The position numbers and the translations under genes are program-made. The notes below the pieces were generated by a model, which was not told the DNA's origin, did not search any database, and saw only the letters and a list, made by a program, of their open reading frames with translations. A stretch of 36,511 bases of DNA from Caldalkalibacillus uzonensis (GTDB taxonomy: Bacteria; Bacillota; Bacilli; Caldalkalibacillales; Caldalkalibacillaceae): contig NZ_JAUSUQ010000020.1 in NCBI RefSeq assembly GCF_030814135.1, positions 1-36,511 on the forward strand, written 5' to 3'. This document shows, piece after piece, positions 22,373 to 34,923 of the stretch (the stretch's first letter is position 1; the number at the start of each line of letters is the position of its first letter).

Positions 22373-23571
22373 GTGTTAAAAATAATGAGTTACCCTAAAA
22401 TTAAAATTATTAATCCATTGCTAGCTCAAAGTATTTCAGCTTTTGGTGTTTTATTCCTTCCCCCGATAGCTCCTTTTATCGTCACAGAGTTCAGTATATC
22501 AGGACTTTTAACAGGTTTAACATTGTCTTCATTTTATTTTGGGGCAATCGTTTCTTCATTTTTGACCGGCAGTATTGTTTCCTATCTGGGAGTCCGAAAG
22601 TCGATAGTTATTTCTCTGTTGATCCTGGGGGTTTTTATTATACTCGCTTCTCTTACACAATCGTTGACACTTATGCTTCTTCTTTTTATTATGGCAGGGA
22701 CAGGTTACAGTCTAATCAATCCGGCTATTAACCAGTTAATTACACAAGATTTTAGCAGGGAAGTCAGGGGACTAGCTATGAGTATCAAACAGACCGGTGT
22801 CACTCTTGGAGGGGCAATAGCTGCATCGTTATTGCCTTTCTTAACCGCTGTATTTGATTGGAGAAGCTCTGTCTTTATCACTGGTCTTATCATCATTGGC
22901 ATTTCCTTTTATTTTTTGTTTATCCTGAGATCATACGAAGCACCAAAGCTTGCAAACCATTTCAGTCCAGGACAAATGTGGGGGGGAATAAATGTGATTT
23001 TCCACAATTTGGACCTAATGCGTTTGAGCATGGTTTCTTTCTTTTTAGTTGGTGCACAGTTCTCTTTTTTTATGTACTTTGTGTTATATCTCAATAACGA
23101 CGTCGGTTATTCTGTAGCTTTTGCCAGTACTTTACTTGCCTTTCCCAAGGTTCAGGCGCCGTTGGACGAGTGGTTTGGGGGATGCTGAGTGACCGTTTTT
23201 CGGAAAGAATCACCGTATTACAGATTATAGGATTCTCCTCATCTGTACTGTTGCTTTTCTTTTCTCTAGCATCTATCGTTAAAATACCTGCTTACTTGAT
23301 TATTGTTATCTCTATTTTACTTGGGTTCACTATAAGCGGTTGGAACGGTGTATATCAAGCGTCTATTATTGAAATCGGCGGGGAGAAAATGGCCGCTGTG
23401 TCCAGCAGTATAAGCTTTACCTTTACTTATACAGGCATCTTCATATTCCCGCTCTTTTTTGGCTGGCTCAATGATCTTATTTCTAATTATTTTGTTTCTT
23501 GGATTGTTTTGTCGTTTACAATGTTTTTTTCTGTATTTTTTATGATTCATAGACACAGAAATGTGACATAA
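22373..23571 (+). pseudogene. MFS transporter, frameshifted
   Basis: GTG start with AGGAGG seven bases upstream. The first part (to about 23147) encodes eight or so TM helices: 'ITEFSISGLLTGL'-like start, 'GYSLINPAINQLITQDF', 'RGLAMSIKQTGVTLGGAIAA'. Then one extra base in a C-run shifts the frame. The other frame continues 'QGSGAVGRVVWGMLSDRFSE', the conserved motif of MFS helix 8, and runs to TAA at 23571. It is the only transporter on the plus strand, divergent from the CoA genes. The restored protein would be about 400 residues, a carboxylate/cyanate-type MFS carrier. The frameshift may be real decay or a sequencing error. Confidence 0.8.
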
Positions 23572-23774: not shown

Positions 23775-24962
23775 TCAAATAACCTTCTTCTCTCTTAGTT
23801 CCTTAATTTTCTCATCATTCAAGCCAAGTACTTGTTTAAGAACTAACTCAGTGTGTTCACCTAAAATCGGGGGATGCTTGTGAATGGGAATCGACTGATT
23901 GTTAACTCGGATCGGGTTCTTTAACAAAGGAATCGATCCCAGACAAGGGTGCTCCACTTCCTGTGTCACTTCCCTTTCTTTGACCTGGGGATGCTCAAAG
24001 ACATCTTTAATATTGTTGACTGGACCGCATGGAACCCCGACAGTGTTAAGCCATTCAGTCCACTCACCGGCCGTTTTGGTTGCCAATTCTTTTTCAATCA
24101 ATTCTCTTAACAGCTTTCTGTTTTGCAGACGATCCGTATTTGTTTTTAATCTTTCATCTTCAGCCCACTCTGGATGTCCCAGAGCTATAGCCAGTTTTTT
24201 AAACAATCCGTCATTCCCGGCAGCAATCATAATTGGTCTATCTTTACAAAGAAAAACCTCGTAGGGGGTAATGTTGTTATGTTCATTTCCGACTCGTTTG
24301 GCAACATAACCGGTTAAGAGGTAGCTGCTTGCAATGTTAGCTAAAGAGCTTACCATAACGTCCAACAATGAGATATCCAAATGACACCCTTTGCCGGTTC
24401 GATCCCTTTCCCTAATGGCCCCCATGATGCCAATGGCCACATACTGAGCAGCCATAATATCTACAATCGGAATCCCGACTCGGGTTGGCTCGCCCTCAGG
24501 ATGCCCTGTAACTTCCATTAATCCTCCCACAGCTTGAATAACTGGATCGTAACCCGGCCTATCTCGGTAGGGGCCCGTTTGACCATATCCCGTAACAGAA
24601 CATAATATAATACTGGGATTAACTTTTTGTAATATTTTATACCCTAATCCTAAACGGTCAAGTGTTCCTGTTTTAAAATTCTCAAGGACAACGTCAGCCT
24701 TGGCTACAAATTGCTTAAAAAGGTCCTTTCCTTCTTCAGTTTTTAAATTAATTGTTATAGAACGTTTATTACGGTTGGTACATAAGTAATAGGTGCTTTC
24801 TCCGTTAGCAAAAGGCCACCAATTACGAATATCATCCGTTCCACCGGGTGCTTCCACACGGATAACATCTGCGCCCAAATCGCCCAGTAACATGGACCCC
24901 ATTGGTCCAGCAAGGACACGGGACAGATCCAAAATACGTATGTCGCCCAATGCATTTTCCAT
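23775..24962 (-). CDS. CaiB/BaiF family CoA transferase
   Basis: 395 residues, the family length. It starts 'MENALGDIRILDLSRVLAGP', with 'LLGDLGADVIRVEAPGG', 'NRNKRSITINLKTEEGK' and 'ADVVLENFKTGTLDRLGLGY' (catalytic Asp region), then 'PGYDPVIQAVGGLMEVTG'. These type III enzymes move CoA between carboxylic acids. ATG with AAGGAGG ribosome binding site, 45 bases after the acyl-CoA dehydrogenase gene. It probably activates the acid consumed by this operon or recycles CoA from its product. Confidence 0.92.
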   Translation of the reverse strand: MENALGDIRILDLSRVLAGPMGSMLLGDLGADVIRVEAPGGTDDIRNWWPFANGESTYYLCTNRNKRSITINLKTEEGKDLFKQFVAKADVVLENFKTGTLDRLGLGYKILQKVNPSIILCSVTGYGQTGPYRDRPGYDPVIQAVGGLMEVTGHPEGEPTRVGIPIVDIMAAQYVAIGIMGAIRERDRTGKGCHLDISLLDVMVSSLANIASSYLLTGYVAKRVGNEHNNITPYEVFLCKDRPIMIAAGNDGLFKKLAIALGHPEWAEDERLKTNTDRLQNRKLLRELIEKELATKTAGEWTEWLNTVGVPCGPVNNIKDVFEHPQVKEREVTQEVEHPCLGSIPLLKNPIRVNNQSIPIHKHPPILGEHTELVLKQVLGLNDEKIKELREKKVI

Positions 24963-25007
24963 GTCTTAAACCTCCTTGTAAGTGAAGATGGTTGGCTGTC
25001 ATAAACC

Positions 25008-26072
25008 TTAGGAACTAATAAATGACCACAAATGGTTGGGTCCAGCTTGCATCACATATTCTCCAAGTCGATCTGACCATTCATTTTCATGCCCAAACTC
25101 GTCTCGCCACGACCAAAGTCGGCGAGTACTGTGGTGCAGTGGGTGCTCATGGGTAAACCCGATGGCACCATGAACTTGATGGGCTATTGGGACAGCAGTT
25201 CCTACTGCTTCACTGACACGAGCTTTGGCCAACATAATTTGATTAAGTCCGTCTCCATCTTCAAAAGCCTCAATGGCATAATTGGCAGCTAAATTTGCTG
25301 CTACAACTTCCCCTGATAAAACCGCCAACTGGTGTTGAATCGCTTGAAACTTACCAATATGCTGTCCAAACTGTTTTCGCTCTTTAGAGTAGGTTACCGA
25401 GAGTTCAAGAATCCGTTCCAATGCCCCTGACATTAACACAATACGGGTCAATGCCCCTGTGAACCATATCCATTGACAAATCTCATTTAAGTTCGGAAAA
25501 GTTCTAACACTACCTTTTACCTGGGCACGATTAAAAATTAGTCTATCCCGTGCTTCTCCAGCGAGGTTCTGACCCGGGATCACAGTACAGTCTTGAGGGT
25601 AGACCACCCCTATAGCTGTTGTACCGCTCGTGGCTGTCCCAATGACTATGATTTCATTGGCAAAACGTGCCCAAGGAACATTTTGAGCTGATCCGGTCAC
25701 ATACCAACTATCTGCTGTCTGTTCGAACTGAATTGCCTCTAGATCACTCACTGATGTCAGCGTTAAAGACCCCTCCTTGATATCAAACTGCAGTTGATGC
25801 AATAGCCAGTTGGCGATTAACGTCTCGGCAAGGGGAATCGGTGCTGAATACTTTCCGGCAATTTTGAGTGCACTTAAAGCATCTCCGTAGCTCCCCCCGG
25901 CTCCTCCCTGTTCTTCAGGTATACCAATCATTGTCAGTCCCATCTCTTCTAAGATGTCCCACAATTCTCCCGGCCAAATTCCTTTCTCAGCGTTGTTAAC
26001 TGTTTCTTTGCTCACCAGATCCTTCATAATTCTCGCTGTTGTATCAACAATCATTTCACGGATATCATTCAT
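25008..26072 (-). CDS. Acyl-CoA dehydrogenase, small/short chain of a tandem pair
   Basis: 354 residues. The family fold is clear in 'EEMGLTMIGIPEEQGGAGGS', 'SVTYSKERKQFGQHIGKFQA' and 'VHGAIGFTHEHPLHHSTRRL', but the middle beta domain is divergent and lacks the usual SEPxxGSD flavin segment. The start ATG overlaps the preceding dehydrogenase stop (ATGA). Such adjacent, unequal pairs usually form alpha2-beta2 heterotetramers with one FAD site per heterodimer, as known for actinobacterial steroid side-chain enzymes. This suggests a bulky or branched acyl-CoA substrate. Confidence 0.88.
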   Translation of the reverse strand: MNDIREMIVDTTARIMKDLVSKETVNNAEKGIWPGELWDILEEMGLTMIGIPEEQGGAGGSYGDALSALKIAGKYSAPIPLAETLIANWLLHQLQFDIKEGSLTLTSVSDLEAIQFEQTADSWYVTGSAQNVPWARFANEIIVIGTATSGTTAIGVVYPQDCTVIPGQNLAGEARDRLIFNRAQVKGSVRTFPNLNEICQWIWFTGALTRIVLMSGALERILELSVTYSKERKQFGQHIGKFQAIQHQLAVLSGEVVAANLAANYAIEAFEDGDGLNQIMLAKARVSEAVGTAVPIAHQVHGAIGFTHEHPLHHSTRRLWSWRDEFGHENEWSDRLGEYVMQAGPNHLWSFISS

Positions 26073-27229
26073 CGTACCCCCAACCCCCTTGCAATAATGC
26101 CCCGTAGAATTTCTGTCGTACCCCCTCGTAGTGTAAAACCGGGTGAATGAAGGATGGCCTGAGCTAGGAGCACTTCAAAATGTTTAATGGAAGTCATCGA
26201 TGGAGACAAAGAGACAAGCAAGCGTACCTTTTCAGTTAATTCCCTTTCAAATTGTGTTCCCAGGTCTTTAACCAGAGAGGCCGGAATATTAGGCGTTATG
26301 CCTTCCTCCAATAACTTAGCAACTCCTAAGGACATGCGTCGTAATGTCCATAAATGAGCAACCAATCTCCCAATTTCAATTCTAGAATGTTTATCGTTTT
26401 GCCCGTTTTTCCTCAGAATCCGTACTAATTCCACCAAAAGTGGAAAGGTACTCAAAAATCTTTCCGGGCCGCTTCGTTCATATGCTAATTCGGTCATACT
26501 TTGTTTCCATCCGTTTCCGATTTCACCAACAACCATGTCATCAGAAACTTTGACGTCCTCGAAAATTACTTCATTAAAGTGATGCTCTCCAGTCATGAGA
26601 ATAATGGGTCTTACAATCACACCGGGCAAGGATAGATCGATAATAAACTGACTCATTCCGGCATGGCGGTTATCCGGATCGCGAGATGTTCGGCACAAGG
26701 CAATCATATACTGCGTCTTGTGGGCCCCGCTGGTCCATATTTTACTGCCATTGATTACCCAGCCGTCCCCTTCCCTACGGGCACTGGTGCTTATGGAGGC
26801 TAAATCCGATCCAGAATTAGGCTCACTTAATCCAATGGAGAAGTAACATTCACCCCTGGCAATTTTGGGTAAAAAGAATGTCCGTTGTTCTTCCGTCCCG
26901 TACCTAAGGAGCAACGGGCCGCTTTGACGGTCAGCTATCCAATGGGCCGCTACAGGAGCACCGGCCGCTAACAGTTCTTCTGTAATCACAAAACGGTCTA
27001 AAGCAGAGCGTTCTTGCCCGCCATATTTGCGAGGCCACGTAACCCCAATCCATCCTTTCTCACCCAATTTCCTGCTGAACTCTGGAGAAAAACCGGCTAA
27101 CCACGAATCACAATGCGGGGTAAAGGTACCTGCTTGCAGTTCTTCATCAATAAAGTTTCGTACCTCATCCCTCAATTTCTTTGTACATTCAGGCAATTTA
27201 ACAGTTGGTAAACTAAATCCTTTAAACAA
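26069..27229 (-). CDS. Acyl-CoA dehydrogenase, partner chain of the tandem pair
   Basis: 386 residues from TTG at 27229, eight bases after GGGGAGG; a GTG at 27238 would abut the ribosome binding site. It contains 'SIGLSEPNSGSDLASISTSA' (flavin/substrate), 'WVINGSKIWTSGAHKTQYMI', 'ELAYERSGPERFLSTFPLLV' and a C-terminal 'RGGTTEILRGIIARGLG'. It overlaps the shorter dehydrogenase gene by four bases, indicating translational coupling and equal production, consistent with a heteromeric enzyme. Confidence 0.9.
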   Translation of the reverse strand: MFKGFSLPTVKLPECTKKLRDEVRNFIDEELQAGTFTPHCDSWLAGFSPEFSRKLGEKGWIGVTWPRKYGGQERSALDRFVITEELLAAGAPVAAHWIADRQSGPLLLRYGTEEQRTFFLPKIARGECYFSIGLSEPNSGSDLASISTSARREGDGWVINGSKIWTSGAHKTQYMIALCRTSRDPDNRHAGMSQFIIDLSLPGVIVRPIILMTGEHHFNEVIFEDVKVSDDMVVGEIGNGWKQSMTELAYERSGPERFLSTFPLLVELVRILRKNGQNDKHSRIEIGRLVAHLWTLRRMSLGVAKLLEEGITPNIPASLVKDLGTQFERELTEKVRLLVSLSPSMTSIKHFEVLLAQAILHSPGFTLRGGTTEILRGIIARGLGVR

Positions 27230-27280
27230 TAAACTCACCTCCCCAACTCCTGATTTATAAAGCCCAGAACTCTAACTGCA

Positions 27281-28066
27281 TTATCTCCCCGTAAACTTGG
27301 GCTTCCTTTTTTCCAGAAAAGCATTAACCCCTTCCTTATGGTCTTCCGTTTCGGTAACGATAGCCATATGTGAAGAAATCAGATCAAGTGCTGTTTCTAA
27401 ATCGGTTTTCATAGATTGACGAACAGAGCGCTTGATCATACGTATTGCAATTTGCGGACCGGAGGCAATTTGCCTAGCTAGATCCATGGTCTGTTCCATA
27501 AATGTTTCTCGTGGAAAGACGTGATTGACTAAACCCATTTGTAACGCTTCTTCTGCGTCCACAAAGCGTCCTGTCCACAAGAGTTCGTAAGCTCTTGCTT
27601 CTCCCACAAGTCTTGGCAAAAAGTAGGCGCCCCCATCACCCGGTACCAAGCCCACCTTGACATAACCTTCACTCACTTTGGCTGTATCAGCCATAGTTCT
27701 TATATCTGCCATAAGAGCCATATCCAGTCCCGCCCCCACAGCAGGACCGTTAATGGCCGCGATGACCGGTTTATCCATTCGTTGCAACGTAAACGGAATA
27801 CGATGAATATCCTCCCAAAGCATATTTTTGGCATCCAACCGGGTCGGTTTACCTTCTTGCATATCTCCCACATCTCCGCCGGCACAGAACACATCTCCCG
27901 CTCCTGTCACAACAACCACATGGACATCCTTATTATTTTGAGCATCTTCCAAGGCCTGAACCCACTCACCGATCATTTGACTGTTAAAGGCATTTTTCTT
28001 TTCAGGACGATTTAACGTGATGGTCTGAATATGATCCTCAATATGAACATGAATCAATGCAGACAT
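27281..28066 (-). CDS. Enoyl-CoA hydratase/isomerase (crotonase family)
   Basis: 261 residues from ATG 28066 (GGGAG upstream); an in-frame extension to 28147 would run through the preceding gene remnant. The crotonase pattern is 'ITLNRPEKKNAFNSQMIGEW', 'VTGAGDVFCAGGDVGDMQEG' (oxyanion hole), 'AAINGPAVGAGLDMALMADI' (second oxyanion hole) and 'VGLVPGDGGAYFLPRLVGEA'. The product hydrates a 2-enoyl-CoA, following the acyl-CoA dehydrogenases encoded just downstream. Confidence 0.92.
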   Translation of the reverse strand: MSALIHVHIEDHIQTITLNRPEKKNAFNSQMIGEWVQALEDAQNNKDVHVVVVTGAGDVFCAGGDVGDMQEGKPTRLDAKNMLWEDIHRIPFTLQRMDKPVIAAINGPAVGAGLDMALMADIRTMADTAKVSEGYVKVGLVPGDGGAYFLPRLVGEARAYELLWTGRFVDAEEALQMGLVNHVFPRETFMEQTMDLARQIASGPQIAIRMIKRSVRQSMKTDLETALDLISSHMAIVTETEDHKEGVNAFLEKRKPKFTGR

Positions 28067-28073
28067 GATTATA

Positions 28074-28268
28074 TCAACTCCCTTTATGAATTGAACCCGC
28101 ACCATCGATGACAATGCATGCCCCGGAAACATAATCAGCGTAGTCACTGACTCGATATGAAGCAGGATTAGCCACCTCTTGGGGTACCAAACCGCTGACG
28201 CCTCCTGTAATGATGGACACTTTACCTGCTAATGTTCCTTCAGGTAACATTGGTTGTTGATATAGCAT
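28074..28268 (-). pseudogene. SDR gene with a large internal in-frame deletion
   Basis: 'LAGKVSIITGGVSG' is the start of an SDR Rossmann fold, and 'DYADYVSGACIVIDGAGS' its far C-terminus. They are joined directly after 'GVSG' by LVPQEVANPASYRV, so roughly 190 residues including the active site are missing. The remaining 64 codons keep one frame with a start and a ribosome binding site (AAAGGATGATC). It was probably a 2,4-dienoyl-CoA-reductase-like or 3-hydroxyacyl-CoA dehydrogenase of this operon. Confidence 0.75.
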
Positions 28269-28277
28269 ATTTGGTGA

Positions 28278-28727
28278 TCATCCTTTTAAATTAGATTTTA
28301 CTCTCTCTTCAAGAGAATCTCTGTACGGGCCCTCCCACTGGATTACTTGGAGCATAACGTTAAAAAAACTTTTGGGGTAGACAAATAATTCTCTCCTTAC
28401 TCCCTCTTTAACATGGGGACCAATGATCCCAATCCCTTTTGCTGTGAGCTCTTGGGCTGCCTTTTCTATATCCTTTACACTTAGGGCAATGTGGTGGATC
28501 CCTTCACCTTTTTTTTGTAGAAATCGTTTAAAGCTGCCCTCACTGATCGGGGTTTCCAAGCCAATCAAAACATCATTCACCAGATAAAAAACGGCCTTTA
28601 CACCATGTTCCTCCAGCACCATTTCCTTCAGTGGCTTAACACCAAACATCGTCTCAAACTTTTGTTTTGCCTCTTCCAGATTATTGACTGCCAGTGTAAT
28701 GTGATCAAGCCCCTCTACCTCTAACAA
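28278..28727 (-). CDS. VOC-family protein, methylmalonyl-CoA epimerase-like
   Basis: 149 residues from TTG 28727, eight bases after AGGAG; a GTG at 28736 would overlap that site. Two beta-alpha-beta-beta-beta modules: 'GLDHITLAVNNLEEAKQKFE' (metal His) and 'GIHHIALSVKDIEKAAQELT' (second metal His), with a likely third ligand Glu at 'IGLETPI'. This is the methylmalonyl-CoA epimerase layout, although the C-terminal 'QVIQWEGPYRDSLEERVKSN' is unlike standard epimerases. It may epimerise or isomerise a 2-substituted acyl-CoA in this operon. Confidence 0.8.
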   Translation of the reverse strand: MLEVEGLDHITLAVNNLEEAKQKFETMFGVKPLKEMVLEEHGVKAVFYLVNDVLIGLETPISEGSFKRFLQKKGEGIHHIALSVKDIEKAAQELTAKGIGIIGPHVKEGVRRELFVYPKSFFNVMLQVIQWEGPYRDSLEERVKSNLKG

Positions 28728-28768
28728 ACGAACCACTCCTATCGATAAACCTTGGAAACTCGCATCTA

Positions 28769-29797
28769 TCAGCCGATCGTGGCAGATGAGACAGCCGTAT
28801 CCCCAAAGTTGGGAACGATTGTAATATGGTACGGTTCCGGCCCTCCAACTACAACAATTAAAATATCTTCATAGTTTTGACACACAGGCACCTTTCCGTT
28901 TTCAACGATAATCTCCTTACGGCGCCATTCAAGTAAATCTCTTGGTATATCTTCAATATTGATTTTGGAATTTTCATAGAGGAATTCTTTTACTTTAGAT
29001 TTGGTCCAACCCGCTTTGCTCATCAATTGGGCATGCCCCGGAGGAAGTAAAATAACAGGATTACCACCCCCAAACAAATAATTGTTATTGCCCATTACCT
29101 TCAACCCATCGGCGACAACGGTTAAATTAGTCAAGACGTTTGTTGTTGCTGGCAAGACATTGTTCGTACCCTGGGCACCGACTACTGTCACAATGTTTTC
29201 TCCATGTTTGTAACCCAATTCTACTGAGAGGGGATCCCAAGGACTTTCTTCTTCATTTTCTCCCAGACAAAAGGTATACTTGCCCGGCATCCCCAAGGTC
29301 GCTTTATCAATTTTTCCGGGCACTGCCCCGCCTATGTTAAGTAAGATCAATCTTAAAGCCCTACCTAACGTGGCATTGGCCCTATTCCCGGGTCCTAATG
29401 CATTTCTACCCGTGTTCATCTGAATTTTTTTTCGAATCTCACCGTTAACAATGACCAAAGGACTAACCGGATTGGTGGTCGTTTGAATACCACCCAAATT
29501 AAACCCTGGTACAGAAATAGCTTTCACCATAGCAATAAGAACCGGCATATATTCAGGTAAACATCCGGCCATAACAGCATTAACTGCAATCTTCTCCACC
29601 GTTGCCAGTCCTTTTCGTGGTTCAACCTCAGCAACCACCTCTTCGGCCGCTAATCCCGAAGCTTCAATATACTTAGCCACCTGTTCAGGGACGGGAGGGA
29701 GTACTGGAAGACCATCAGTCCACCCCATTTCATAAGCTTCATCAAAAAATTCAAATATGGAATCACTCATTTTAACGGTATCTGACAGCTTTGTCAT
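28769..29797 (-). CDS. Conserved partner protein of the UGSC selenoprotein
   Basis: 342 residues, start ATG overlapping the stop of the UGSC gene (ATGA), so the two are translated together. Conserved-looking segments are 'YEMGWTDGLPVLPPVPEQVA', 'KIAVNAVMAGCLPEYMPVLI', 'GNRANATLGRALRLILLNIG' and 'YTFCLGENEEESPWDPLSVE'. From memory, this type of protein is commonly encoded beside UGSC proteins and has no assigned reaction; no known catalytic fold is recognised. There is no signal peptide or membrane segment, so it is cytoplasmic. Cysteines in AGCLPEY and TFCLGEN might engage the Sec/Cys of its partner. I propose it is the second subunit of the same enzyme. Confidence 0.75.
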   Translation of the reverse strand: MTKLSDTVKMSDSIFEFFDEAYEMGWTDGLPVLPPVPEQVAKYIEASGLAAEEVVAEVEPRKGLATVEKIAVNAVMAGCLPEYMPVLIAMVKAISVPGFNLGGIQTTTNPVSPLVIVNGEIRKKIQMNTGRNALGPGNRANATLGRALRLILLNIGGAVPGKIDKATLGMPGKYTFCLGENEEESPWDPLSVELGYKHGENIVTVVGAQGTNNVLPATTNVLTNLTVVADGLKVMGNNNYLFGGGNPVILLPPGHAQLMSKAGWTKSKVKEFLYENSKINIEDIPRDLLEWRRKEIIVENGKVPVCQNYEDILIVVVGGPEPYHITIVPNFGDTAVSSATIG

Positions 29798-30321
29798 TCT
29801 GACACTTTCTCCTTTGAAATTTGATCTAACGCTTCACTAATAATGTCGCCAGCGATCACTTTCAATTCCTCTGTGGGCAGCTCTTCCACCAAACGACTAA
29901 TCACCACTTTGGGAATGCTTGTAAACTCCCTTCCTGCAGCAATTGCATTAGCTAAATCAACAAACCGATCGGTGACCACCACAATGGATGGAATTCCTCT
30001 ATTGAACAAATCAATTGAATCGTGGATACTCCACGTAGTACATGATCCTCAATTTGCTAAACCGACGATAACAAAATCCGACTTTAAAGCTAGATCATCT
30101 AAAAATGACTTGGATGCAGCTGAAGTTAGAGGGATGTCATAAATTGCAACACTTTTAACTTGGTGGTTTTCAGAAAGCTGACGACTCATTTCAGCAATGA
30201 TCACTTCCCAACTTTTCCATCTGTTATTTAAAATTCCGATCCGCTTTCCTTCTAAGGAGTAAATCGGTTTCAATTTTTGATCCACTTCTTTAGGTCTGGA
30301 TTTTGGATTTAACACCAGCAT
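29794..30321 (-). CDS. UGSC-family selenoprotein (in-frame TGA read as Sec)
   Basis: Start ATG 30321 with GGAGG nine bases upstream; a TTG at 30330 has no spacing. Ninety codons lead to TGA at 30051-30049, and the same frame then continues 84 codons to the real stop at 29794. Across the TGA the protein reads KSDFVIVGLAN-U-GSCTTWSIHDSIDLFNRGIP, i.e. the U-G-S-C motif of the UGSC (seleno)protein family, where Sec or Cys occupies this place. The N-terminus 'KPIYSLEGKRIGILNNRWKS' also fits. Product 175 residues with Sec91, cytoplasmic. A perfect hairpin follows the TGA (30021-30035). Selenium insertion needs SelA, SelB and tRNA-Sec encoded elsewhere, which the window cannot show. Alternative: a Cys-to-stop mutation. 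Confidence 0.85.
30021..30035 (-). promoter_or_regulatory. Candidate bacterial SECIS hairpin
   Basis: On the minus strand CGTGG-AGTAT-CCACG, a perfect 5-bp stem with a 5-base loop whose second base is G. The loop begins 18 bases after the TGA Sec codon, within the spacing usual for bacterial SECIS elements, which sit inside the coding region and bind SelB. Confidence 0.6.
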
Positions 30322-30469
30322 TTTGAACAACCTCCATTCTTTTTTGACCGTTTTCTGTAATCACTGAGACGTTAACTATTTTTATTTGTTGCACACTTAC
30401 TCTTATGGGGTTTGAATTGATCTCAACCTTTCCTTCTAACTTAGAAGCTAAGTATGAAAACTCTGACAT
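30290..30469 (-). CDS. Possible small protein overlapping the UGSC start
   Basis: A 59-residue frame from ATG 30469, overlapping the selenoprotein start by 32 bases. The sequence 'SEFSYLASKLEGKVEINSNP' then 'SVQQIKIVNVSVITENGQKR' has an even, protein-like composition with alternating strands, but the ribosome binding site is weak (AGAAGTG) and no family is recognised. It lies within the transcript from the sigma-54 promoter. It could equally be chance coding downstream of the synthetase remnant. Confidence 0.3.
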   Translation of the reverse strand: MSEFSYLASKLEGKVEINSNPIRVSVQQIKIVNVSVITENGQKRMEVVQNAGVKSKIQT

Positions 30470-30635
30470 CACTTCTGCTAGCCAATGAGGTGTGAGACAA
30501 GGCAGCCTTTGCTCCAATTTCAGAAGCGCCCACTTTATAAATGACCACTAGCTTATGATTTTTTAGACCGACTTCTACCAATTCATACAGGCGTTCTGGA
30601 GACCTGAGCCTTTCCTGAACTCTAGTTTTATTCAC
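30441..30635 (-). pseudogene. Acyl-CoA synthetase (ADP-forming) alpha fragment
   Basis: 'RSPERLYELVEVGLKNHKLV' and 'KVGASEIGAKAALSHTSLAS' reproduce the segment before and around the catalytic His of ADP-forming acyl-CoA synthetases (compare QSHTGLLAG of the intact gene at 18480-19961). Only about 55 residues survive. It begins at the predicted transcription start of the sigma-54 promoter, so it now serves as untranslated or leader sequence of the selenoprotein operon. Confidence 0.7.
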
Positions 30636-30644
30636 ATCTTATAT

Positions 30645-30661
30645 TGCAAAAGTCATGCCAA
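30645..30661 (-). promoter_or_regulatory. Sigma-54 (-24/-12) promoter of the selenoprotein operon
   Basis: The minus strand reads TTGGCATGACTTTTGCA: GG at -24 and GC at -12 separated by exactly 10 bases, close to the consensus TGGCAC-N5-TTGCA. It lies between the sigma-54 activator gene and the UGSC operon and points into the operon. Confidence 0.8.
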
Positions 30662-30862: not shown

Positions 30863-32734
30863 TTATTGAAGTTGGTATTGTTTTATTTTTCTCCATAATG
30901 TTGTTCGAGAAATCCCAAGCTTTTGAGCTGCCTTTATTTTATTTCCGTTTGAATCCAACAATGCTTGAATAATACGAACTTTCTCCGCTTCTTGATAAGA
31001 AGTATAGTGCTCACCAACACCATTATTTTTTCCTTTATCATATTGCTGAATTTGTTGGGCTTCAAACTTAAAATGTTCACTTAAAACATCTTTAAAAATT
31101 TCGATAAGATCATATGTTGTCGTGGAAACGGAAGTTAATGCGGTAAGTCTTTGTACGAAATTTTCTAGTTCACGAATATTACCACACCACTCATAGTCAA
31201 GTAGCCTTTCTCCAGCTAACTTTATAAGAAAGTGAACGTGATCTTCCTGCATCCCATGCTTAAACAACAAATGTTTAAAAATAGGAATGATATCATCCTG
31301 CCTCTCTCTTAGCGGTGGCACATTTATCTGCAAAACATTAATCCGATAATACAGATCTTCACGAAACATTCCCCTTTTAACAAGATCAATCAGTGACTTG
31401 TTTGTGGCTGTGATAATTCTGACATTTAACGGGATTACCTTTTTTCCGCCTAACCGGATAACTTCTCTTTCTTGCAGTACCCTTAACAGTTTTGTTTGAA
31501 TCTCTAAAGAGAGCTCGCCGATTTCATCCAAAAAAATCGTCCCTCCTTGTGCCATTTCAAAGAAACCCGGTTTCCCACCTCTTTTTGCACCAGTAAAAGC
31601 GCCTTCTTCATATCCAAACAGTTCACTCTCCAAAATATTTTGAGGGATGGCCGAACAATTGACCGGGAGAAAAGGACCGTGTCGTCTATCACTTTCTTGA
31701 TGAATACTATGGGCCAATAATTCTTTTCCAGTTCCAGACTCTCCGTACAACAGAATGGGTGCCGTTGAACGAGAGTACTGTTTTGCTTTTACAATTACTC
31801 TTTTCATAGCCAATGAATCAGCAATAATATTTTTGAATGTATACTTAGATTGAAAACTATTTGCATATCGTTCCACAGCCTCCTCATTAAAGTCACCTGG
31901 GAGGCGCAGTATCGAAACATAACCGTTCAGTTTTCCATTAATTTCTATACCTATTCGTTTTTCATCAAGTCTTTTTAATCCTTGATCCAAAACCTCAGTA
32001 ATATTTTGGCCCCTTACTTCATGTTTGACTTTTCTGTTAATTAGGCGTAAACCAGCTGCATTGACATCAGTAATAGATCCATGTGAGTCAGTGATAAAAA
32101 GAGGGTTAATCACCTGATCAAAAATTGCTTCTTTAAATTTAACATACTTCATCATTTTTTTCTTTGTTGCAGCAAATTGGTAAGCCTTTATCAAGTCTAG
32201 TCTCAGTGCATCATTAGAATAAACCAGGATGCTATTAATCCCCAAACTTTCAGCCAGCTTACAAATAGAACTGGTTCCGATTACAGTATCATATCCTTTC
32301 TTTTGATATCTTTCAAGTAAGTTTTCCGCCTCTTCTAGACTATTAATAATCAAATGTTTCACGTCAAGATTAAGTGTTCGTTTGTACTCTTCTAATGGAT
32401 ATGTTTCATAGTTAGAGTACATCAGCAATACTTTATTTCCTATTGCTTTTGCCTTGACTAAAGCTTTGACCACATCAGCTTCAGTAAAATGCAACGGATA
32501 TATTGGTATTAAATGTAATAGCTCACTAAATTCTCTTTTAAAGATTTCAAGATGGGCCCCACTTGTAATGACGAGGTCAAATGTGGTTACATAGTCCAGA
32601 TCTATACGTTTGCTAAACTCAGCAAAACCAACCTCTAATACTTCTAATTTAATGGGCAAGTTAACAGTTTTATAAACCTCATAACATAGTTGTGTAAAGT
32701 TTGGGTGGCTAATAATTAAGATTTTCGTCGTCAT
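30863..32734 (-). CDS. PrpR-type sigma-54-dependent transcriptional activator
   Basis: 623 residues. The N-terminal 185 residues resemble the PrpR sensor domain (type-1 periplasmic-binding-like fold: 'FDLVITSGAHLEIFKREFSE', 'KKGYDTVIGTSSICKLAESL'). A PAS domain covers about 200-260 ('NPLFITDSHGSITDVNAAGL'). The AAA+ domain follows with Walker A GESGTGKE (331-338), the sigma-54 contact loop GAFTGA (378-383) and Walker B 'IFLDEIGE'. A Fis-type HTH ends the protein ('NKIKAAQKLGISRTTLWRKI'). Such proteins respond to small acids or CoA-pathway intermediates. Its position beside a sigma-54 promoter and inverted repeats makes it the likely regulator of the selenoprotein/CoA operon. Confidence 0.92.
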   Translation of the reverse strand: MTTKILIISHPNFTQLCYEVYKTVNLPIKLEVLEVGFAEFSKRIDLDYVTTFDLVITSGAHLEIFKREFSELLHLIPIYPLHFTEADVVKALVKAKAIGNKVLLMYSNYETYPLEEYKRTLNLDVKHLIINSLEEAENLLERYQKKGYDTVIGTSSICKLAESLGINSILVYSNDALRLDLIKAYQFAATKKKMMKYVKFKEAIFDQVINPLFITDSHGSITDVNAAGLRLINRKVKHEVRGQNITEVLDQGLKRLDEKRIGIEINGKLNGYVSILRLPGDFNEEAVERYANSFQSKYTFKNIIADSLAMKRVIVKAKQYSRSTAPILLYGESGTGKELLAHSIHQESDRRHGPFLPVNCSAIPQNILESELFGYEEGAFTGAKRGGKPGFFEMAQGGTIFLDEIGELSLEIQTKLLRVLQEREVIRLGGKKVIPLNVRIITATNKSLIDLVKRGMFREDLYYRINVLQINVPPLRERQDDIIPIFKHLLFKHGMQEDHVHFLIKLAGERLLDYEWCGNIRELENFVQRLTALTSVSTTTYDLIEIFKDVLSEHFKFEAQQIQQYDKGKNNGVGEHYTSYQEAEKVRIIQALLDSNGNKIKAAQKLGISRTTLWRKIKQYQLQ

Positions 32735-33725: not shown

Positions 33726-34923
33726 CCTATAGGGGCTGTCAATAATTTTGAGTAAACTCATTCACTCTTGTTAAGGAATGTATTTTCTCTATCCGTCCTG
33801 GTAAGTAAACGGATAGTTGGAGCAATATTTGGCCCCAGGTTTGAACGCGGCCAGTCCAGCGTCTGACGACATCCATGGTGGCCAAGCAAAGCATTTTCAA
33901 CAAGACCTCGTCCGTTGGAATAACGGCTTTTCCTTTTGTCACTTTTCTTAGCTGGCGGTGGTAGCTTTCAATCATTTTGGTGGTGTAAATGAGCTTACAT
34001 ATTTCTGGTGGATATTTAAAGGACGTGGCAATTTCGTTCCAGTTCTTACGCCAGGATTGAACCATGAGGGGGTACTTGGCTCCCCAGGTTTGCTCAAACT
34101 GATCCAATTCTTCCAAGGCCACTTCTTCAGTTGGGGCTTTATATATTGGCTTTAGTTCAGCTGTGATTTTTTTCATGTCTTTATAGGACACATATCGAAT
34201 GGATTTTCTAATCTGATGGATGATACATTTTTGGACTCCGTTTGCGGGAAGCTTGCTTCAATGGCTTCACTGAAGCCTTTCAAGTTGTCAACGCAAGTAA
34301 TTAAGCCGTCTTGTACACCACGGTTTTTCAGTTCATTCCAGATCAATGCCAATGGCCATATAGGCCGCTTTATTGACAATCTGGCCATCCTGTTTTACTT
34401 TGAAGTGGATGGCATCCAAGAACATCACCGCATAGACCGCCTGTAACGGACGATTTTGCCATCCCTTGTTTAAAGGCATGAGCTTATTGGTCACATTAGA
34501 AATGAGTGTAGGCGAGACGTCGATGCCGTATAATTGGTTTAGGTGATCCTGGGTATCTCGCGTACTCATTCCCTGCGTACATGGCAATAATCTGGTCTTC
34601 GATCCCGGTCACATTGGATTGGTGCTTCTTGACAATAGCCGGTTCAAATTCACCTTCACGGTCACGGGGCACTTTAATCTCAGATTCACCGTCATCCGAA
34701 CGTACTTTTTTCTTGCTATAGCCATTCCGTCTGTTAGAGGTGGCTTTGCTTTCTTGGTCATGCTTGGCATAACCTAAGCTATCTTCCAGCTCACCTTCTA
34801 ACATTTCTTGCAGCGTTTCGGCGAACAGATCTTTAAAGGTGGACTGTATATCCTAGGCAGATTTGATGTTATTCTCTTTAATCCATTGCGCCGAAGCTGG
34901 TCTTTTAACATGAGTCCTATAGG
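33726..34923 (-). mobile_element. Decayed IS256-family element
   Basis: Transposase pieces on the minus strand, from N to C: 'STFKDLFAETLQEMLEGELE' with a stop upstream, 'RRNGYSKKKVRSDDGESEIK', 'MFLDAIHFKVKQDGQIVNKA' (DDE core), 'GLITCVDNLKGFSEAIEASF', and 'IYTTKMIESYHRQLRKVTKG'. These are the Mutator/IS256 signatures, split by at least three frameshifts, so it cannot encode its own transposase. CCTATAGG occurs at both ends (33726-33733 and 34916-34923), which fits an 8-bp target duplication, although that sequence is also self-complementary. Confidence 0.8.

Follow-up and report, generated by a model that had tools for sequence, protein, structure and literature searches.

A bacterial reading frame interrupted by a single TGA may be a dead gene or a selenoprotein gene, and for the UGSC family the further question is what the product does. 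Both questions are raised by a gene in a 36,511-nucleotide stretch of the Caldalkalibacillus uzonensis genome, the whole of which is referred to here as the window. An initial annotation, made from the sequence alone, had proposed a selenocysteine (Sec)-containing UGSC protein hidden behind the TGA. We examined this proposal using the rest of the genome, related genomes, profile comparisons and structural models, and considered what reaction the protein may catalyze.

The UGSC gene

The gene occupies positions 29794..30321; these coordinates were given correctly in the initial annotation, and the strand, which had been left unstated, is the minus strand. It comprises 175 codons. The ATG (30321-30319) is preceded by a ribosome-binding site GGAGG read from the sequence (30331..30335, minus strand, 9 nt 5’ of the ATG). 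The two same-frame segments that had been noticed around one TGA form one 175-residue frame, in which the TGA (30049..30051, minus strand) is codon 91 and encodes the U of the U-G-S-C motif. The observation that 84 intact codons follow the Sec codon and end in an ATGA overlap with the next gene was confirmed from the sequence: the UGSC stop codon TGA is at 29796-29794, and the ATG of the next gene, further referred to as the partner, at 29797-29795. The standard code splits the gene into ORFs of 71 and 93 aa. Splitting by automated annotation had been anticipated, and it is seen in a relative from Paracoccus ferrooxidans, annotated as two “hypothetical proteins” flanking its TGA.

The protein matches the Pfam UGSC family (PF24696) with 116 bits at a cut-off of 25, over profile positions 2–170 of 172. 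This match spans both sides of the TGA, covering residues 6–171 of a 179-letter reading that starts at TTG 30330 and has the stop TGA as its final letter. The window protein is thus like the members of PF24696 in having the U-G-S-C motif with Sec encoded by TGA. It differs from the NCBIfam equivalog NF041046 (“UGSC family (seleno)protein”) in that it scores 98.4 bits, below the cut-off of 125, and therefore falls short of that model.

Selenocysteine decoding in the genome and its relatives

The selenocysteine machinery, the absence of which would have spoken against the selenoprotein reading, was sought in the genome and all of it is present. selA is located at C5:210781-211872 (589.5 bits vs. 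267.9 for the equivalog model); selB scores 379.9 bits (cut-off 242.25), and selD, which has one in-frame TGA of its own, 420.5 bits (cut-off 125). The tRNA-Sec has the anticodon TCA. The genome has another UGSC gene, which likewise contains exactly one TGA. The genome also encodes two PrdB-like selenoprotein genes with the UPLC motif (G000 C17:55195-55602 and C9:116505-116939).

UGSC genes were found in three of 61 genomes (this one and 60 relatives), with one TGA in each of the six matches. A phylum sample of 398 genomes contained UGSC in 20; of the 40 matches in it 25 have one TGA and 15 have no stop, and none has a TAA, a TAG or a double stop. A set of 45 non-redundant domains was formed from 37 of 44 matches (22 genomes, with seven matches left out) and eight Chloroflexi places. 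The Sec column of their alignment, where U or C had been predicted, holds TGA in 34 domains, Cys codons in seven and ATG in four. Cys is found at +3 in all 34 TGA forms, and the four ATG forms (MGTS) have neither Sec/Cys nor the second Cys. A subfamily of UGSC-partner proteins in which MGTS replaces UxxC was observed at L049–L052 and L098; since Sec/Cys and the second Cys are both absent, the MGTS subfamily may be non-redox.

Instead of the frame-disrupting mutations downstream of the TGA that a dead gene might have accumulated, the relatives have the frame kept. Of the 12 rows inspected (out of 44 relatives), 11 have a higher identity to the window protein after Sec than before it, and hence the part following the TGA is conserved; the exception is L027, with 31% identity before Sec and 29% after it. 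Of the 13 genomes that have a TGA form, 12 also have selA, compared with one of the nine that lack such a form (Fisher p 2.4e-4, kinship between the genomes being ignored). Two genomes count against the Sec reading: in G261 (310 contigs, 96% complete) there is one TGA form and selA was not found, and in G380 selA is present and the TGA form absent.

The predicted SECIS hairpin

A bacterial SECIS hairpin of 6 bp with an apical GU is predicted at 30021..30035 (minus strand), 13 nt past the TGA. For its evaluation, 15 stand-alone TGA genes were taken from this genome, from others of the same phylum, and from Chloroflexi, Paracoccus and Acidovorax. The hairpin pairs fully in all 15, with 90 of 90 pair cells standard. 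Compensatory changes on both sides occur in 15 cells (shuffle mean 5.5), a covariation score of 0.492 was reached by none of 500 shuffles, and sliding the register abolishes the signal. Two of the five covariation measures fail to exceed the shuffles, namely the number of pairs with both-side change (3 vs. 2.6; 308/500) and the number of further pair types (6 vs. 4.5; 65/500). The hairpin is kept despite differences in the encoded residues (WSIHD in the window vs. SSLLD in L030), and hence it is not a mere by-product of the protein motif.

The four stand-alone Cys homologues have five, three, two and four of the six pairs, and none has all six. When the same register was applied to all 36 TGA genes examined, five or six pairs were formed in 19; in fused UGSC forms the hairpin is mostly at a different placement. 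Taken alone, the window hairpin folds weakly (z from −0.6 to −1.9), so that the case for a SECIS rests on covariation. The energy contrast between TGA and non-TGA genes gave p 0.002 with related sequences counted as independent. A search of Rfam returned one chance-level U4 match and nothing else. Judged by these comparisons, the predicted hairpin behaves as expected of a bacterial SECIS.

The possibility that the TGA is a true stop and the gene is dead has on its side the two ORFs under the standard code. We regard it as very improbable in view of the Sec machinery, the presence of a TGA in the same motif of another gene, the covarying hairpin, the conserved downstream half and the ATGA coupling. 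As far as sequence can tell, the window gene is a genuine selenoprotein of an already known, uncharacterized family, because the sel genes and tRNA-Sec, the second TGA-containing UGSC gene, the PF24696 match and the covarying hairpin agree.

The partner gene

The partner (28769..29797, minus strand), which overlaps the UGSC gene by the ATGA, is a putative second subunit of 342 aa with a conserved Cys79. Searches of Pfam and NCBIfam (E 0.001) assigned it to no family, and a sequence search of PDB up to E 1 found no relative. Domains of this type accompany UGSC in 44 of the 45 cases, being fused to it in 32 and adjacent in 12. In the exception, L027, no partner was seen, but just 274 bases upstream of the match are covered. 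UGSC occurs in 20 genomes of the 398-genome sample, the partner in 21 and both in 20; in G394, which lacks UGSC, the partner gene is broken and contains a TAG. In plasmids, 24 records had a partner match, and the partner goes with UGSC in all seven plasmid loci examined; no relatives were found in viral contigs. E-values from the iterated search are inflated by inclusion and were used solely to locate domains. G29, P31, P35, G78, P81, G119 and E180 are invariant in the 44 partner domains, and Cys79 is present in 91% of them. Sequence supports both the decoding of UGA as Sec and the joint occurrence of UGSC and the partner.

At L068 (4948-18266, G361 C1), four fusions of UGSC and the partner are arrayed within 13 kb, and three of these were flagged as exported. 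The array also holds another frame with the partner and, between the fusions, a selB-like match.

The UGSC passages of a 2008 study of Global Ocean Sampling data (PMC2398784) describe UGSC fused to a conserved uncharacterized domain, Unknown_1. The window partner is probably Unknown_1: in both cases a UGSC domain goes with one conserved uncharacterized domain, whereas in the window the two are encoded by separate overlapping genes and not by a fusion. For the structural model of the partner (pLDDT 82.6), neither Foldseek nor VIA-align gave a convincing match to a solved structure. The best Foldseek match is the class I fumarase alpha subunit (E 7e-5, TM 0.25), followed by more fumarases and cyanuric acid hydrolases, and the best VIA-align Z is 5.0. 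The partner was also considered as a relative of GrdE, which was ruled out by the comparison of the two profiles (0.1% in hhalign).

Relationship to GrdB and PrdB

A profile built from UGSC domains only was run against 2603 ORFs. It finds 15 of 15 GrdB/PrdB-type proteins with E from 7e-11 to 5.5e-4, and outside the UGSC loci and GrdB/PrdB its sole other match is GrdE (E 0.022). The reciprocal GrdB/PrdB profile finds UGSC proteins alone outside its own family (best E 2.1e-8, hmmsearch); unlabelled rows in this search represent the same loci a second time. The window protein is absent from the GrdB-profile matches and does not match PF07355 up to E 10. The resemblance to GrdB is, at the level of profiles, a result for the family and not for the window protein alone.

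The hhalign probability for UGSC vs. the GrdB/PrdB Sec domain is 97.0%, and 95.7% with the Sec/Cys columns masked; the match extends over about 85 columns around Sec. The GrdB/PrdB profile for this comparison was built from 14 of the 15 proteins, GrdB from L073 with its UGTS motif being left out. This protein (L073 3872-5203) is in itself unusual in that its Sec motif is UGTS and not UxxC. As controls, 22 clustered families were compared with UGSC. One of them was UGSC itself, 19 gave at most 2.1%, and the GrdE and GrdB-up-to-Sec families of glycine reductase gave 28 and 37%. The Asp/Glu racemases (PF01177), picked afterwards as a hard Rossmann-like control, gave 54.5% for one group (86 columns), 7.6% for the other and 20.7% for both together. 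Since they reach 54.5%, a part of the GrdB/PrdB signal may be due to the fold. The weak similarity of the UGSC profile to PF01177 remains far below that to GrdB/PrdB (hhalign scores 35.6 vs. 73.4). We read the relationship between UGSC and GrdB/PrdB, detected at the profile level, as real but distant, on a shared fold.

Common to UGSC and GrdB/PrdB (PF07355) are the UxxC Sec site, a similar stretch up to “E..GIPtV”, and association with Trx/TrxB. The systems differ in several respects. The PF07355 match is missing for the window protein; the partner does not correspond to the pyruvoyl-type GrdE/PrdA subunit (PF09338), the comparison having been made with GrdE and not PrdA; and at L073, the only locus where GrdA was searched for, separate GrdB and GrdA genes are found next to the UGSC gene.

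The racemase similarity permits another interpretation, that of an Asp/Glu-racemase-type (seleno)cysteine enzyme with Sec/Cys acting in acid-base catalysis or as a nucleophile, performing isomerization or a lyase reaction with no net reduction. Besides the 54.5% match over 86 columns to one PF01177 group, it would agree with the Rossmann-like order of elements. The values for the other group and for both groups together are against it, as is the alignment, which places the second Cys, and not Sec, on the racemase CTE cysteine; the fusion to TrxB described below and the joint loss of the U/C pair argue for redox turnover. We consider such an enzyme unlikely, slightly more so than the thiol oxidoreductase discussed below.

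Predicted fold of the UGSC protein

In the AlphaFold model of UGSC, built using eight sequences (mean pLDDT 84.5, pTM 0.81), strands and helices alternate, and Sec91 is located between the strand 83–89 and the helix 92–107. Thioredoxins have an order of elements different from an alternation of strands and helices with Sec following the third strand. No thioredoxin is among the 50 matches listed by Foldseek or by VIA-align for this model, although absence from such lists carries no weight against a thioredoxin fold. Its matches in PDB are general Rossmann-like folds; the best (Z 10.6) is a designed protein, the next (Z 10.4) is a chain of the methyl-coenzyme M reductase activation complex, and both are about 1 above the following rows. 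A thioredoxin-like fold was suggested for UGSC in 2008, in the passages of PMC2398784 devoted to this family. The predicted order of elements is Rossmann-like instead and, as far as a model can show, speaks against it. Queries with a GrdB and a PrdB-like protein found no relative in the PDB copy searched, and so the kinship with GrdB/PrdB stands at the sequence level.

Thioredoxin system and gene neighborhoods

A single 662-aa protein of G017 combines the partner with a thioredoxin reductase (it scores 389 bits against the TrxB equivalog, for which the cut-off is 343), and UGSC starts in an ATGA overlap with it. TrxB adjoins the UGSC-partner pair in Arthrobacter (with TrxA), in Roseovarius and in G261, where its score is below the equivalog cut-off, and is two genes away from the pair in Variovorax. 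G358 has on one strand a UGSC-partner fusion, the TRAP transporter genes DctP, DctQ and DctM, a UroD-like gene, GrdE and GrdB, as well as a TrxB-Trx fusion (two genes away), TrxA, GrdA and a DUF5940 protein. In total, TrxB is fused (one case) or within three genes (five cases) at six of 30 loci, that is, the window, seven plasmid loci and 22 others. In Paracoccus, trxB is about 9 kb from UGSC, beside selA. The window's contig has no trxB match. As for the background, seven of eight genomes have one or two trxB genes above the cut-off and G261 has none; the best match of G261, below the cut-off, is the one adjoining its UGSC gene.

Other neighbors of UGSC, labeled like the above from a hand-picked gene set, are CoA-transferases, enoyl-CoA hydratases, acyl-CoA dehydrogenases and TTT/TRAP/TAXI transporters. 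By a crude test, 15 of the 45 UGSC domains look exported; these forms need another reductant, because cytosolic TrxB could not serve there.

The TrxB/TrxA neighbors, together with the UxxC motif at the start of a helix in the model, would also suit a selenoprotein thiol oxidoreductase with a thioredoxin-like fold, in line with the 2008 suggestion, that reduces protein disulfides or peroxides. Thioredoxin differs from the model, in which strands and helices alternate and Sec follows the third strand, and neither a 342-aa partner nor the setting of a catabolic operon would be expected for a general thiol reductase. Such a function therefore appears unlikely.

The plasmid pFER4 of Paracoccus ferrooxidans (L092) carries selA, selB, trxB, a cysteine desulfurase gene and a UGSC gene. 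The proximity of this UGSC gene to selA, selB, the cysteine desulfurase, DsrE and TusA, and the selB match between UGSC genes at L068, could indicate a protein handling metals, metalloids or sulfur/selenium, with Sec as a ligand, for selenium/sulfur trafficking. Such genes are found at one of the seven plasmid loci, however, and selB at one of the 22 other loci, while many other UGSC loci are clusters of organic-acid/CoA genes, which makes a trafficking role improbable.

The operon in the window

The genes around UGSC in the window form a run on the minus strand. A sigma-54-dependent activator with the PrpR_N sensor, identified by profile match (30863..32734, minus strand), is upstream of UGSC and codirectional with it. 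The gap before UGSC contains a sigma-54 (−24/−12)-like site with one mismatch (30645..30660, minus strand), the sole one-mismatch site in the window, where 1.13 are expected by chance. The partner is followed by a VOC/glyoxalase-fold protein (28278..28736, minus strand), for which the nearest NCBIfam model is methylmalonyl-CoA epimerase, with a score below the cut-off of that model. Further downstream of UGSC, at 23775..28147 (minus strand), are genes for an enoyl-CoA hydratase, two acyl-CoA dehydrogenase-like proteins and a family III CoA-transferase. The run thus has the order: sigma-54 activator, UGSC, partner, VOC protein, enoyl-CoA hydratase, two acyl-CoA dehydrogenase-like proteins, CoA-transferase.

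Three other features of the window were observed. A short frame before the UGSC gene (30441-30635, minus strand) contains the motif KVGASEIGAKAALSHT and looks like an acyl-CoA ligase remnant. At 22373-23571 there is a transporter-like gene, by eye of the MFS type, in two overlapping frames and probably frameshifted. A fragment at 33739-34191 resembles, again by eye, an IS256-type transposase.

Proposed function

The comparisons suggest a two-part enzyme, with UGSC as its catalytic half, that works like the bacterial glycine and proline reductases. In our estimate it is somewhat probable that the UGSC gene encodes the Sec subunit of a two-subunit selenol/thiol-dependent reductase and the next gene its second subunit. 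The Sec gene, the SECIS-like hairpin and the constant partner are supported directly by the sequences; the kinship with GrdB/PrdB and the coupling to the thioredoxin system are supported more weakly.

In such a reductase, Sec at the helix start of the Rossmann-like, GrdB/PrdB-related domain would attack or reduce a small substrate, probably a carboxylate, held together with the partner. Selenium would end up as a selenenyl-sulfide with Cys94, three residues on, and thioredoxin reductase/thioredoxin or another reductant would reset Sec. The product may then pass to the steps catalyzed by the CoA-transferase, acyl-CoA dehydrogenase and hydratase encoded downstream. The sigma-54 activator probably turns the operon on.

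A broader proposal, which we put forward tentatively and regard as doubtful in its full extent, is that UGSC and the partner constitute a third class of Sec-dependent substrate reductases beside glycine and D-proline reductase. In this class a non-GrdE partner would replace the pyruvoyl subunit; it would occur in several bacterial phyla and haloarchaea, with some members exported, and would cleave or reduce a substituent of a small organic acid before its CoA-dependent breakdown.

Significance for the UGSC family

The UGSC family appeared in print in 2008 at the latest (PMC2398784), and so the window gene is not new in kind: it adds one member to a family already known. In Table 2 of that paper 255 Sec-containing UGSC sequences are given for 37 ocean metagenome samples, and in PMC9402790 UGSC makes up 8.2% of the selenoprotein genes. 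UGSC or its abundance is listed in PMC2398784, PMC13188914, PMC9312934, PMC5330540, PMC7539508, PMC9402790, PMC5029168 and PMC7435645. The UGSC passages of these papers, found by a search that most subscription journals lie outside of, mention neither a function nor kinship with GrdB/PrdB, which agrees with the statement of the initial annotation that the function of the family is undescribed. The partner, the covarying SECIS hairpin, the resemblance to GrdB/PrdB and the link to thioredoxin reductase are new beyond that annotation.

UGSC is among the commonest selenoprotein families of ocean metagenomes, and the passages cited above assign it no function. The links to a constant partner, a TrxB fusion and the glycine and proline reductases would turn this family into a concrete enzyme to express, with a short list of reactions to try.
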